NCBI GenBank assembly: GCA_010909725.1
Contig: JAACMV010000020.1
Coordinates: 953,151 to 1,017,150, forward strand
DNA from: Picochlorum sp. 'celeri'
Taxonomy: Eukaryota; Chlorophyta; Trebouxiophyceae
Length of the DNA stretch: 64,000 nucleotides
Direction: 5' to 3'
In this document: positions 4,185 to 7,795 of the stretch, piece by piece
Numbering within the stretch: the stretch's first letter is position 1
Layout: each line of letters begins with the position of its first letter
Made by a program: the position numbers and the translations under genes
The notes under the pieces: model-generated
Databases searched by the model: none
Seen by the model: only the letters and a program-made list of their open reading frames with translations
Told to the model about the DNA's origin: nothing

Positions 4185-6171
4185 ATGTCAAAATTGCCGG
4201 ATTTGTCACGGACATCCACGACCGGCCAGTCGTCGCAAGGCATTGACGCCCCCACTCGCAAGGTGGTTGGGTTCCATGTCGAAGGTGCAACGCCATCTCC
4301 TCAGAATGATGAGCTCATGAAACAAAATATCAAAAGTGGCTCATTGTCGCCGGTGATCATCCCTCCCTCATTTCAGGTGCGTACGATGTGTGCAGTCACC
4401 TACAGCGTGGACACGTACTGCGCGTTGTGATTCATCTTCCATACCATTGATTGGATTGAAAAATGTACAGGGACAAAGGACTCCTGAGACGTCGCCCCGT
4501 CAGCTTCCGGGGAGCAAGCGGACGAGCATAGACGAGCCTGGACGAGCGGCCGGGTCGAGGTATTCTCCCACGCACCGGCCACCGAGTGGAAGGAGCAGTT
4601 TAGACAATCCAGCGGGCACATCCTCATTTACACGTGGAAAGGATCAGGAGCCGTTGCCGTTGACTCCCATTGAGTCGAACAGCATTTTGGGGACTGTAGA
4701 GCAGCATGATGATGTGTCGGTCACAGTGTTCAAGGAGGAGGACAAGCCTCTCCAGCAACAGTCGTTGACGAGGAAAGATTCTCTGGCGACACCCTCGACG
4801 GCAGACGAAGACAAAGCGGTGAAAGAAGAAGGTAAGACAGAAAAAAAGACGAAGGAGCAAGGGCATAGGGATATTCCACCTAAAAAGCAGATGACCAAAG
4901 CAGAGAGGAGGGCTCTTCAGGAGGCACAGAGGGCTGCAAAGGCTGCTGCAAAGGCACAGAACCAGCAGCAACCAGATGGAAAGAAACGACATGTGGATGA
5001 AGAACATATTAGTAATAAGAAGGACGTTCAAAAGGATGTCGTGACGAGAAAGGAGGGTTCCAGCAGGCATCCTGCCAGTGTGCCCCGTCCTGCAGCATTT
5101 TTTGATCATTTACCAAAACAACAGTCTATTTCGATGGAAGAACTGGCATCTTCTGCGTTAGAAAAGTTCATTCCAGTCTCCTGTGTGGCTCTGGGTAAAA
5201 AAATGCTGGATGGATCCCTCAGAGGGACAAACAAGAGGAGCCTGGCCCTCCTGCAGATGATTGATGGAGTGATTTCGTCATTCGAGTTGTCCGAGGGGCA
5301 ATCTTTCACCAGAGAATTCACTGTGGCAGTGAAGAATATGGTATCATTTTTAGTTCGATGCCGGCCGCTATCCCCAGCTGTGGGGAACGTGGTCAAGTCG
5401 ATCAAGGCAGAACTTGGGCATGTAGCAGCGGACACAGAGTTGTCAAATGAGGAGGCAAAGAATGAACTGAGACGATTTGTGTCGACGTTTGCCCAAGACA
5501 AGATAACAATTGCTCAAAAAGCTCTGTCTGGAACGGCGGCAAGTAAAATAAGCGATGGTGACATAATTCTGACGTATGCGTGCTCATCAACTGTTGAGCA
5601 GACCCTGAAAGCTGCTGTGGCAGCGGGTAAAGAGTTTAGCGTGGTCATAGCAGATGCAGGGCCCTTGTATGAGGGCAAGGAATTACTGACGGAATTATTG
5701 CGCGTTGGTATTCCATGCGAGTATTTACTTCTAAACAGCTTGGAAACTGGTATGAATCAGGCTAACAAAGTGATGCTAGGGGCAGCAGCGGTCATGTCAA
5801 ATGGTGCAGTCTTGTCAAGAGTCGGGACGGCAGCAGTGGCCATGTCAGCATCGCTGGCCAACGTCCCCGTTATCGTCTGTTCGGAAACGTACAAATTCCA
5901 TGAGAGAGTCCAGTTAGACAGCATCACCAACAATGAATTGGCAAATCCTGCAGCACTGTTGCAGAAGGCTGGTCCTCTTGCCGAGTCGCTCCAGCAGGAA
6001 GACGGACAGTCAAACCTGTCGCTGCTCAACTTGGTGTATGATACAACTCCCGCGGAATTTGTCACGGTGATAATCACTGAGGTCGGTGCACTGCCACCAA
6101 CAAGTGTGCCAGTTGTCCTAAGGGAGTACAGATCTGAGAGTGAACTCATGATGCAAGCCTCAGCTGCCTGA
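4185..6171 (+). CDS. EIF2B4: Translation initiation factor eIF2B, delta subunit
   Basis: The coding sequence joins 4185..4376 and 4471..6171 across a 94-nt GTGCGT...CAG intron, giving 630 residues. eIF2B is the cytosolic guanine-nucleotide exchange factor for eIF2; the delta subunit belongs to its alpha/beta/delta regulatory core. The N-terminal third is charged and disordered, with a RKVVGF and LSPVIIPPS segment like those of plant delta subunits, followed by a Lys/Glu/Ala-rich stretch (MTKAERRALQEAQRAAKAA). The C-terminal 330 residues form the IF-2B Rossmann-like domain, with ILTYACSSTVEQ, VVIADAGPLYEGKELL, LGAAAVMSNGAVLSRVGTAA and VCSETYKFHERVQLDS. The intron phase and the plant-like exon 1 support the start at 4185. 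A TGTAA motif follows at 6194. Confidence 0.95.
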
Positions 6172-6219: not shown

Positions 6220-6233
6220 AAAAACAGTAAAAA
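6220..6233 (-). terminator. RNA polymerase III T-run terminators for the permuted tRNA
   Basis: Two T5 runs on the minus strand (6229-6233 and 6220-6224) lie about 35-45 nt downstream of the 5' half of the tRNA. This is where a Pol III transcript covering both halves would be expected to stop. The assignment rests only on the T-runs and their position. Confidence 0.5.
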
Positions 6234-6266: not shown

Positions 6267-6370
6267 TACAAGGCTGGTGCTCTAAACCAACTGAGCTATA
6301 GAAGCGTATCCCTACGTGAGGGGCATCATGTGTTTGCTTCTACCGTGGTTCGAACACGGGACCCCCAGCT
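6267..6370 (-). tRNA. Permuted tRNA-Thr(UGU) gene: 3' half upstream of 5' half
   Basis: Read on the minus strand, the order is 3' half (6370..6335), a 29-nt linker (6334..6306), then 5' half (6305..6267). Put in tRNA order, the acceptor stem GCTTCTA pairs with TAGAAGC (7/7), the D arm is GCTC/GAGC, the anticodon stem CCAGC pairs with GCTGG (5/5), the variable loop is GGGTC, and the T arm is CCGTG-TTCGAAC-CACGG (5/5), with discriminator A. The joined anticodon loop reads CTTGTA plus A, giving anticodon TGT, with the junction at 37/38, the usual tRNA intron site. Leader and trailer can pair in part (CC-AGA with UCU-A-GG), as expected for a splicing helix. B-box-like and A-box-like sequences are both present, in reversed order. 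By precedent in Cyanidioschyzon, the transcript would be circularised at the junction by tRNA splicing enzymes and the linker then removed by end processing. Confidence 0.88.
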
Positions 6371-6637
6371 GTCTGGCTGGATGCGATGATCCAATCACAA
6401 GAGAGAATTTTTTACATTTTATAAATACGTGGATACTGGCGCCGGCCTTCTCCAGTCCTTTTGGCATCCACCCGCGCTCGCCATCACATCAGTTTCTGTT
6501 TCATCCGATGCCTATGATTATTTATCACTGCTCAAAGCCTTGTTCGTGACGTTTCAGTCGATTCATGGGCATTTCATTCCTGCTAACAGGAATTTCATTC
6601 CTGAGGTACCATCTTCCTGCATTGACAGCGTCTCTGT

Positions 6638-7627
6638 TCAATATATAATCAAGGGTTTTTCATGAGGTATTCCAAGATAATTTAGTCCGAAACGATGGAC
6701 GTGTCTCAATTTGTCGATAAAAGCAACAAGCATCTCCTCGACACGTGCATCATCTAATTGAATGTCTGGTATTCTCGGCATTTTGATTGGTCTACCGATC
6801 ACGATCGTAAGTTGATTTCTGTATGGCACAGGGGTTCCATATTGGCCCCAGGCCAGCATCGGGGCGAAGCCAAGACTCCTGGACAGCCTCGTAAACATGT
6901 GTCTGGCAAATGAACGTGTCGGGGGATCATACAGTGGCCTCCAGTATTTGTAGAGATCACTCTGACCTATCCCAAAACAAGGAACGATAGATGCTCCTTT
7001 CTGCATGGCCAAGTGGATAAAACCTCTCCTTCGTTTCAAATACACACATTCCACACATTGCTCCATGAGCAAACATTCATGAACTCCTCCTGGGCATAAA
7101 GCCACGGAGCTGCCTCCGTCCAGCAGACACTCCATGGACGAACGCGACACTGGCCTACAACCCAGCCACCAAAACAAATGTCGCAACAGCGGGATGTAGA
7201 AAATCCCATCTGAGACAAGAATGGCCGCGCCGTCCAAGTTCTTGGGAATTTTCATTCCTGCTGGCTTCTCAACGTGACAAAATGTGCACATCCCTTGAGG
7301 CAGCACGCCATGAGGCTCATACGCAATCATGTAAGGCCCATCATCACCGAAACTCCCGCCATCTTCACATAAAACCTTCACTGGCAGGAACTCCTCAAAT
7401 GCCTTTATGCTGTAGGCCATGAACCAAGAAATCACGAGAGGACACGGTACATCCAAAGGTATGAGTAGGGATACAATAATTATAAAAAGGTTTGGAAACC
7501 CCAAGAGTGGGAAAAAAATCGCCAGGACCAATGTCGCCAGCACCCAAACGACCACCAGGATCAGCAGTGTGAACCATATTGAGACGGCAGCAATCACCTT
7601 GATTTCCCGCAACAAGTCTTGATTCAT
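6638..7627 (-). CDS. DGAT2: Diacylglycerol O-acyltransferase type 2
   Basis: This 329-residue protein transfers an acyl group from acyl-CoA to diacylglycerol, the last step of triacylglycerol synthesis, at the ER and lipid droplets. Two adjacent N-terminal membrane segments (about residues 13-60) are followed by the DGAT2 signature EPHGVLP, which has Glu in place of the animal His (HPHG) as in plants and algae. Further conserved blocks are the PGGVHE motif, RRGFIHLAMQKGASIVPCF, FGIGQSDLY and the C-terminal VIGRPI...HVHRFGLNYLGIP. The first in-frame ATG is at 7627; seven further codons upstream are open but begin with GTG. The gene starts 168 bp from the divergent CPSF30 gene. Length matches the family. 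Confidence 0.95.
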   Translation of the reverse strand: MNQDLLREIKVIAAVSIWFTLLILVVVWVLATLVLAIFFPLLGFPNLFIIIVSLLIPLDVPCPLVISWFMAYSIKAFEEFLPVKVLCEDGGSFGDDGPYMIAYEPHGVLPQGMCTFCHVEKPAGMKIPKNLDGAAILVSDGIFYIPLLRHLFWWLGCRPVSRSSMECLLDGGSSVALCPGGVHECLLMEQCVECVYLKRRRGFIHLAMQKGASIVPCFGIGQSDLYKYWRPLYDPPTRSFARHMFTRLSRSLGFAPMLAWGQYGTPVPYRNQLTIVIGRPIKMPRIPDIQLDDARVEEMLVAFIDKLRHVHRFGLNYLGIPHEKPLIIY

Positions 7628-7795
7628 ATCATACCATCGACATAGCACAGGGGCCTTTCAGAAGAATATCGAAAGTTTTTCATCCTTGAGGATTCTCAAA
7701 TCACAAGTGCTATTCAGCATTAAATAATCGTGGTGGGAGCAGCACCGCGGCATTATTATCAAATAAACTATAGTATTTAATTTAATTATAGAAAT

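Follow-up and report, generated by a model that had tools for sequence, protein, structure and literature searches.

Can a tRNA gene whose 3′ half lies ahead of its 5′ half still provide the cell with a working tRNA? This question was raised by a short interval of the window, that is, the whole 64,000-nucleotide stretch of Picochlorum sp. 'celeri' DNA analyzed here, in which a sequence-only reading had claimed a permuted tRNA-Thr(UGU) gene on the minus strand. The claimed order proved exact to the base, running from 6370-6335 and then from 6305-6267, with 36 nt (discriminator included), 29 nt, and 39 nt corresponding to the 3′ half, the intervening sequence, and the 5′ half, respectively. The gene occupies the gap between two convergent open reading frames (ORFs). 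Its parts and neighbors are as follows, in window positions:

6420..6425, minus strand: TATA-like TTTATA, starting 15 nt upstream of AAATTC
6405..6410, minus strand: AAATTC upstream element, common to other permuted and ordinary tRNA genes here
6371..6386, minus strand: leader adjoining the junction, which holds bases -3 to -6 (6373-6376)
6336..6370, minus strand: 3′ half of tRNA-Thr(UGU), nt 38-72, before the 5′ half in transcription order
6335, minus strand: discriminator base A73, read from the sequence
6306..6334, minus strand: intervening sequence of 29 nt without TTTT, bridging the 3′ end of the acceptor stem to its 5′ end
6267..6305, minus strand: 5′ half of tRNA-Thr(UGU), nt 1-37, with the anticodon TGT at 6270-6268
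6229..6233, minus strand: T5 run, presumed RNA polymerase III terminator, 33 nt past the 5′ half
6224-6220, minus strand: second T5 run downstream of the 5′ half
4390..6171, plus strand: ORF with an IF-2B (initiation factor 2 subunit family) domain, ending 95 bp from the tRNA gene
6638..7648, minus strand: ORF with a diacylglycerol acyltransferase domain, the other neighbor

Placed in standard order, the two halves formed a 75-nt tRNA carrying the consensus features T8, A14, G15:C48, G18 G19, and TTCGA in the T loop. ARAGORN read the reordered 75-mer as tRNA-Thr(tgt) and drew every stem fully paired (acceptor 7/7, D 4/4, anticodon 5/5, and T 5/5), bearing out the claim of a full cloverleaf with perfect acceptor, anticodon, and T stems. 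CCA is not encoded, and AACAC comes after A73. An ordinary intron-containing tRNA gene was ruled out by the order itself, as the 3′ half precedes the 5′ half. When folded freely, the reordered RNA reached its energy minimum in a structure other than the cloverleaf, which counts against a functional permuted gene; the minimum-energy fold of unmodified tRNAs is often not a cloverleaf.

ARAGORN found no tRNAs in the unrearranged window, and Rfam at gathering thresholds reported no tRNA there. The sole Rfam report was a SNORD36 C/D-box snoRNA at 18967-18888 (minus strand, 49.6 bits), which lies between ORFs for the N-terminal and later parts of translation initiation factor IF-2 and therefore probably sits in an intron of the IF-2 gene. 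A strict scan for rotated cloverleaves on both strands of the window returned one place, tRNA-Thr(UGU), with 0 matches in 100 mononucleotide-shuffled windows. A covariance model, R2, was built from 15 ordinary tRNAs of the same genome with the Thr gene left out and rotated in silico, with introns removed, a cut at 37/38, and N linkers of chosen length. R2 gave the tRNA-Thr(UGU) gene 67.0 bits (E 2.5e-19; 54 sources, 132,988 bases), and among the 16 ordinary-tRNA loci searched alongside, its best match reached 27.2 bits. An earlier model trained with the Thr gene, R1, gave 69.6 bits, with ordinary-gene matches up to 29.7 bits. A chance cloverleaf was ruled out by the R2 score obtained without the gene, the shuffled windows, and the second haplotype described below. 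The permuted arrangement is thus confirmed: the ARAGORN reading after reordering and this high score for the reordered architecture agree with the claimed identity, and the interpretation of the locus in the sequence-only reading is supported.

A survey of the genome for further permuted tRNA genes was motif-guided, incomplete, and conducted mainly on one haplotype. Places with T-arm and D-arm motifs yielded 152 fetched loci, one of which (L186) was the window's own place, and further loci came from later searches; one T-arm/D-arm search listed 100 of its 108 places. Permuted genes were recognized with covariance models and a pairing detector as well as by visual inspection. At least 18 loci, including that in the window, were permuted, and these code for 17 tRNA species: Thr AGU, CGU, and UGU; Ala AGC, CGC, and UGC; Cys GCA; Gly GCC; elongator Met CAU; Arg UCG (two loci), UCU, and CCU; Leu AAG, CAG, and UAA; and Ser GCU and AGA. 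All 18 break at 37/38, and every Ala and Thr isoacceptor found in the survey was permuted. R1 gave 38 bits or more to 16 of the 18, the window's own among them; the Ser-AGA gene was spotted by eye, and Arg-CCU came from a D-arm motif search. After reordering, ARAGORN found a tRNA at 18/18 loci, with the anticodon unresolved for Leu-UAA, whose 3′ half had been cut one base short. Permutation of at least 17 tRNA species genome-wide is a larger finding than the single Thr gene.

Additional motif searches gave Arg-CCU in one case, only the known Thr-AGU in another, and no new gene in two. Two late motif listings of 17 and 57 places stand outside the counts; among the 17, C3:403297 and C23:402230 are the Arg-CCU gene. 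R1 matches scoring no more than 18.5 bits were also left out, as were two detector matches with 6/7 acceptor pairs judged to be chance (L072 and L121), an unconvincing ARAGORN tRNA at L058, and an ARAGORN Cys(aca) at L078 that overlaps the permuted Gly gene. The two copies of permuted tRNA-Arg(UCG) lie on C8 in opposite orientation (L095 and L098), and their 128-nt intervening sequence folds into several hairpins (z -4.7, with 0/200 shuffles as stable). Separately, L081, L106, L110, and L113 are near-identical repeats with a T-arm-like GGTTCGAGCCCCTA, located about 20 kb or less from contig ends, and perhaps form a subtelomeric repeat family.

The ordinary tRNA genes found represent 22 species, 12 of them with introns; five of their anticodons were read by hand, in genes where ARAGORN positioned the intron differently. 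No single species turned up in both permuted and ordinary form. The anticodon CAU occurred in both, and we took the ordinary gene to be the initiator and the permuted gene to be the elongator, presumably distinguished by CC at 32-33 with anticodon-stem G:C pairs versus U33. Among the loci read, Ala, Thr, and Cys genes were never in ordinary form. Gln-UUG, Gly-CCC, His-GUG, Leu-UAG, Tyr-GUA, Val-AAC, Val-CAC, and Sec were found in neither form, showing that the motif survey is incomplete; these eight may be ordinary genes that escaped the motif search or permuted genes with T arms or junctions outside the patterns used. An identical 17-mer, GAGGTCCCGGGTTCAAA, resembling a T arm or box B, abuts the first base of two ordinary genes: L013 134-150 (plus strand) before tRNA-Asn(GUU) and L023 224-240 (minus strand) before tRNA-Phe(GAA). 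This 17-mer may represent either a box B located outside the gene or a relic of a 3′ half, of the sort that might remain if permuted genes arose by tandem duplication.

The sequence signals at tRNA-Thr(UGU) are those of a single linear RNA, comprising an upstream element, a T-stretch after the 5′ half, and no terminator between the halves. AAATTC lies at -40 and TTTATA at -55. Across the permuted genes, a run of at least four T begins 36 nt or less after the 5′ half in 18/18, and TTTT within the intervening sequence occurs in 0/18. Between -60 and -18, AAATTC was present in 11/18 permuted and 7/22 ordinary genes, compared with 2.4% of GC-matched window stretches; in the other 7/18 permuted genes the exact motif was absent at the expected distance. 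By eye, the upstream element appeared bipartite in both permuted and ordinary genes, with a first part that was often ACTATA- or TATA-like and (G)GAAATTC about 5-15 nt beyond it. Upstream control, in place of internal boxes in normal order, would account for the transcription of permuted genes.

A green-algal hBH motif at 37/38 is described in passages of a 2014 review (PMC3978253). For the corresponding central helix, nt 32-35 were compared with leader bases -3 to -6, using 5000 swaps of leaders between genes as the control. The 18 permuted genes formed 58/72 central-helix pairs, against a mean of 41.2 (sd 3.2) with swapped leaders, and 0/5000 swaps reached as high. The A-I pair (32:-3) formed in 17/18 genes, against 11.5 with swapped leaders. 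When the leader was slid from -2 to +7, pairing peaked at the expected register and was at most 35/72 elsewhere. A reduced set of 12 genes gave 37/48 central pairs against 26.5, again with 0/5000 swaps as high. The outer h′ helix across the 18 genes was not above chance (29/72 vs 24.5). At tRNA-Thr(UGU), 6373-6376 and nt 32-35 (6272-6269) pair at 3/4 positions, the A-I pair included, with T34:C-5 as the mismatch. Ser-GCU fails in the expected register; from reading its letters, a one-base leader shift (a 4-nt bulge) would pair all four. The reordered halves and the motif test thus agree on the claimed 37/38 junction.

The assembly totals 27.41 Mb in 30 contigs, many matching in pairs, and according to the accessible parts of its report, P. 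celeri has 27.43 Mbp divided into two sets of 15 scaffolds (PMC7225527). The second haplotype carries the same Thr gene at C5:943895-944115. Between haplotypes, 0/75 exon positions differ, compared with 7/299 aligned flanking and intervening positions (2/29 intervening and 5/270 flanking), and identity over the surrounding 1.5 kb is 99% (1480/1501). A DNA search with the 75-mer, in which the best candidates were scored and very common words skipped, found its two halves only here and at the allelic C5 place. Non-exhaustive searches, covering the motif-guided loci and 63/866 candidates scored with Rfam, found no ordinary tRNA-Thr gene.

Second-haplotype copies were found for 17/18 permuted loci. 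Alleles of 15 loci showed 2/1145 exon versus 100/4581 non-exon differences (Fisher p 6e-8), counts that were summed by hand and are not fully independent, as the two Arg-UCG loci are near-copies. One exon difference is a 1-nt insertion in the 3′ half of the Arg-UCG.1 allele on C17, which may be a long-read assembly error, and the other is a substitution in the 5′ half of the elongator Met allele. Three Ala loci were left out of this count: the second alleles of Ala-AGC and Ala-CGC have diverged yet are still permuted, and that of Ala-UGC was not found in 10 kb at the guessed place. The presumed alleles of tRNA-Ala(AGC), L118 (C4) and L231 (C30), are about 76% identical, with matched changes in the anticodon stem. 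Covariation was assessed by aligning 14 class I sequences, which represent 12 loci, two of these contributing both alleles; the class II (Leu and Ser) genes and the second Arg-UCG locus were excluded. Standard pairs made up 98.3% of 294 paired cells, compared with 64.8% after shuffling and at most 54.4% after sliding, and 18/21 pairs had changes on both sides; fitting the sequences to the model structure when aligning them favors this result.

The explanation we hold to be very probable, judging from these sequence analyses, is a functional nuclear circularly permuted tRNA-Thr(UGU) gene of type II (37/38), processed via circular RNA. Permuted genes may originate from a tandem pair of tRNA genes through loss of the outer halves. 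The same loss from an ordinary pair could also leave a dead relic, two adjacent half-tRNA pseudogenes no longer expressed, and duplicated tRNA genes are considered a plausible intermediate in permuted-gene origin in the review cited above (PMC3978253). A relic would not be expected to keep its exons identical between haplotypes while the surroundings vary, nor fully paired stems, compensatory differences between permuted genes, junction pairing, and a T-run; another Thr-UGU copy was also not found in the non-exhaustive search. We consider a relic quite improbable. In an assembly polished with long reads only, as the P. celeri report indicates in part (PMC7225527), one could suspect that the two halves of a normal gene had been exchanged through an artefact of assembly or rearrangement. 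Both haplotypes carry the Thr gene, however, the SNPs surrounding it differ, and the same architecture recurs at 17 other loci, so that the two haplotypes and the many sister loci rule out assembly error and leave any such artefact a negligible probability.

A further alternative accepts that the Thr-UGU gene is transcribed and circularized but holds that it mainly yields circular RNA or tRNA fragments and that another tRNA-Thr, such as an A-to-I edited AGU, reads ACA. By ordinary wobble rules, ACA is read by a UGU or an IGU tRNA, and a Thr-AGU gene does exist, though it too is permuted. The constraint spans the whole tRNA, and the sole copies found of the UGU and AGU (giving IGU) tRNAs are both permuted, which argues against this alternative and makes it very improbable.

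For the functional permuted gene, we infer transcription, cleavage, ligation, a circular intermediate, and decoding at Thr-UGU from the known algal pathway, as set out in parts of the review (PMC3978253). RNA polymerase III would produce one RNA consisting of the leader, 3′ half, intervening sequence, 5′ half, and trailer. The halves would fold into a cloverleaf, with the intervening loop closing the acceptor stem. The tRNA splicing endonuclease would then remove the leader and trailer at the anticodon-loop hBH motif, and ligation of nt 37 to nt 38 would generate a circle. RNase P and tRNase Z would excise the 29-nt loop, after which CCA would be added. This circular route would serve at least 17 tRNA species of this alga.

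Considering the sequence evidence as a whole, decoding in Picochlorum probably depends on circular-RNA processing, to an extent beyond anything described in the literature searched. If at least 17 species, Cys and elongator Met among them, are permuted-only, the cell would have to rearrange RNA before reading many codons, and if every Ala and Thr isoacceptor found is coded only as a permuted gene, RNA circularization would be essential for the whole of those codon boxes. An upstream promoter element common to permuted and ordinary genes would make internal promoter order dispensable and allow permutation to spread. Permuted tRNA genes are uncommon. Why they persist is a question made testable by a fast-growing diploid alga whose translation appears to rely on at least 17 permuted tRNA species. 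Approachable questions include the handling of permuted precursors by the endonuclease, ligase, and RNase P, any role of the circles, and the spread of permutation between tRNAs. In genomes of this kind, a large fraction of the tRNA genes can escape standard tRNA annotation.

The 2014 review counts, in the parts available, 34 permuted tRNA genes in all, C. merolae accounting for 11 and four green algae for 19 (PMC3978253). The genes described here resemble those of the prasinophytes Ostreococcus and Micromonas (Maruyama et al. 2010, in PMC3978253) in being nuclear, with mostly 37/38 (type II) junctions, an hBH motif, and intervening sequences of tens of nt. The Arg-UCG intervening sequence, at 128 nt, exceeds the 1-74 bp range given in that review (PMC3978253). 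Among the rows listed there, the permuted prasinophyte species are Ser, Leu, Cys, Arg, Asn, and iMet, from 19 genes in four genomes (PMC3978253), whereas here all Thr and Ala isoacceptors found were permuted, and at least 17 species occurred in one genome. C. merolae (2007, in PMC3978253) shares the gene order, an upstream TATA-like element, a T-stretch after the 5′ half, the absence of an encoded CCA, and Thr among its permuted species, and the circular intermediate has been found in that alga. Its permuted genes, 11/43, break at several positions (types I-IV), in contrast to 18/18 at 37/38 here, as far as the review portions describe them (PMC3978253). The 3′ half also precedes the 5′ half in chlorarachniophyte nucleomorphs, with two Ser genes where present according to parts of PMC4494063, and in the archaeon Thermofilum pendens, with the junction at 59/60 and not 37/38 in the review sections used (PMC3978253).

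The sequence-only reading had suggested that a green alga might extend the list of lineages with permuted tRNA genes. The green alga was borne out by a window protein 99% identical to LOW PSII ACCUMULATION 1 of Picochlorum sp. SENEW3; the Trebouxiophyceae, however, had already been added by the Auxenochlorella paper, as its accessible passages indicate (PMC12636532/PMC12633428). A full-text literature search found no permuted tRNAs in Picochlorum in the titles, abstracts, or passages retrieved, and the SENEW3 genome paper, which used tRNAscan-SE, does not contain the word 'permuted' in its main text as far as accessible (PMC11092101). Auxenochlorella UTEX 250-A (Plant Cell 2025, PMC12636532; preprint PMC12633428) is, in the passages available, the same kind of organism, a diploid and streamlined member of the Trebouxiophyceae with permuted nuclear tRNA genes, but it belongs to a different genus. 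Permuted tRNA genes are thus an already known gene type, and within the literature searched, the genus Picochlorum and the extent of permutation appear to be new.
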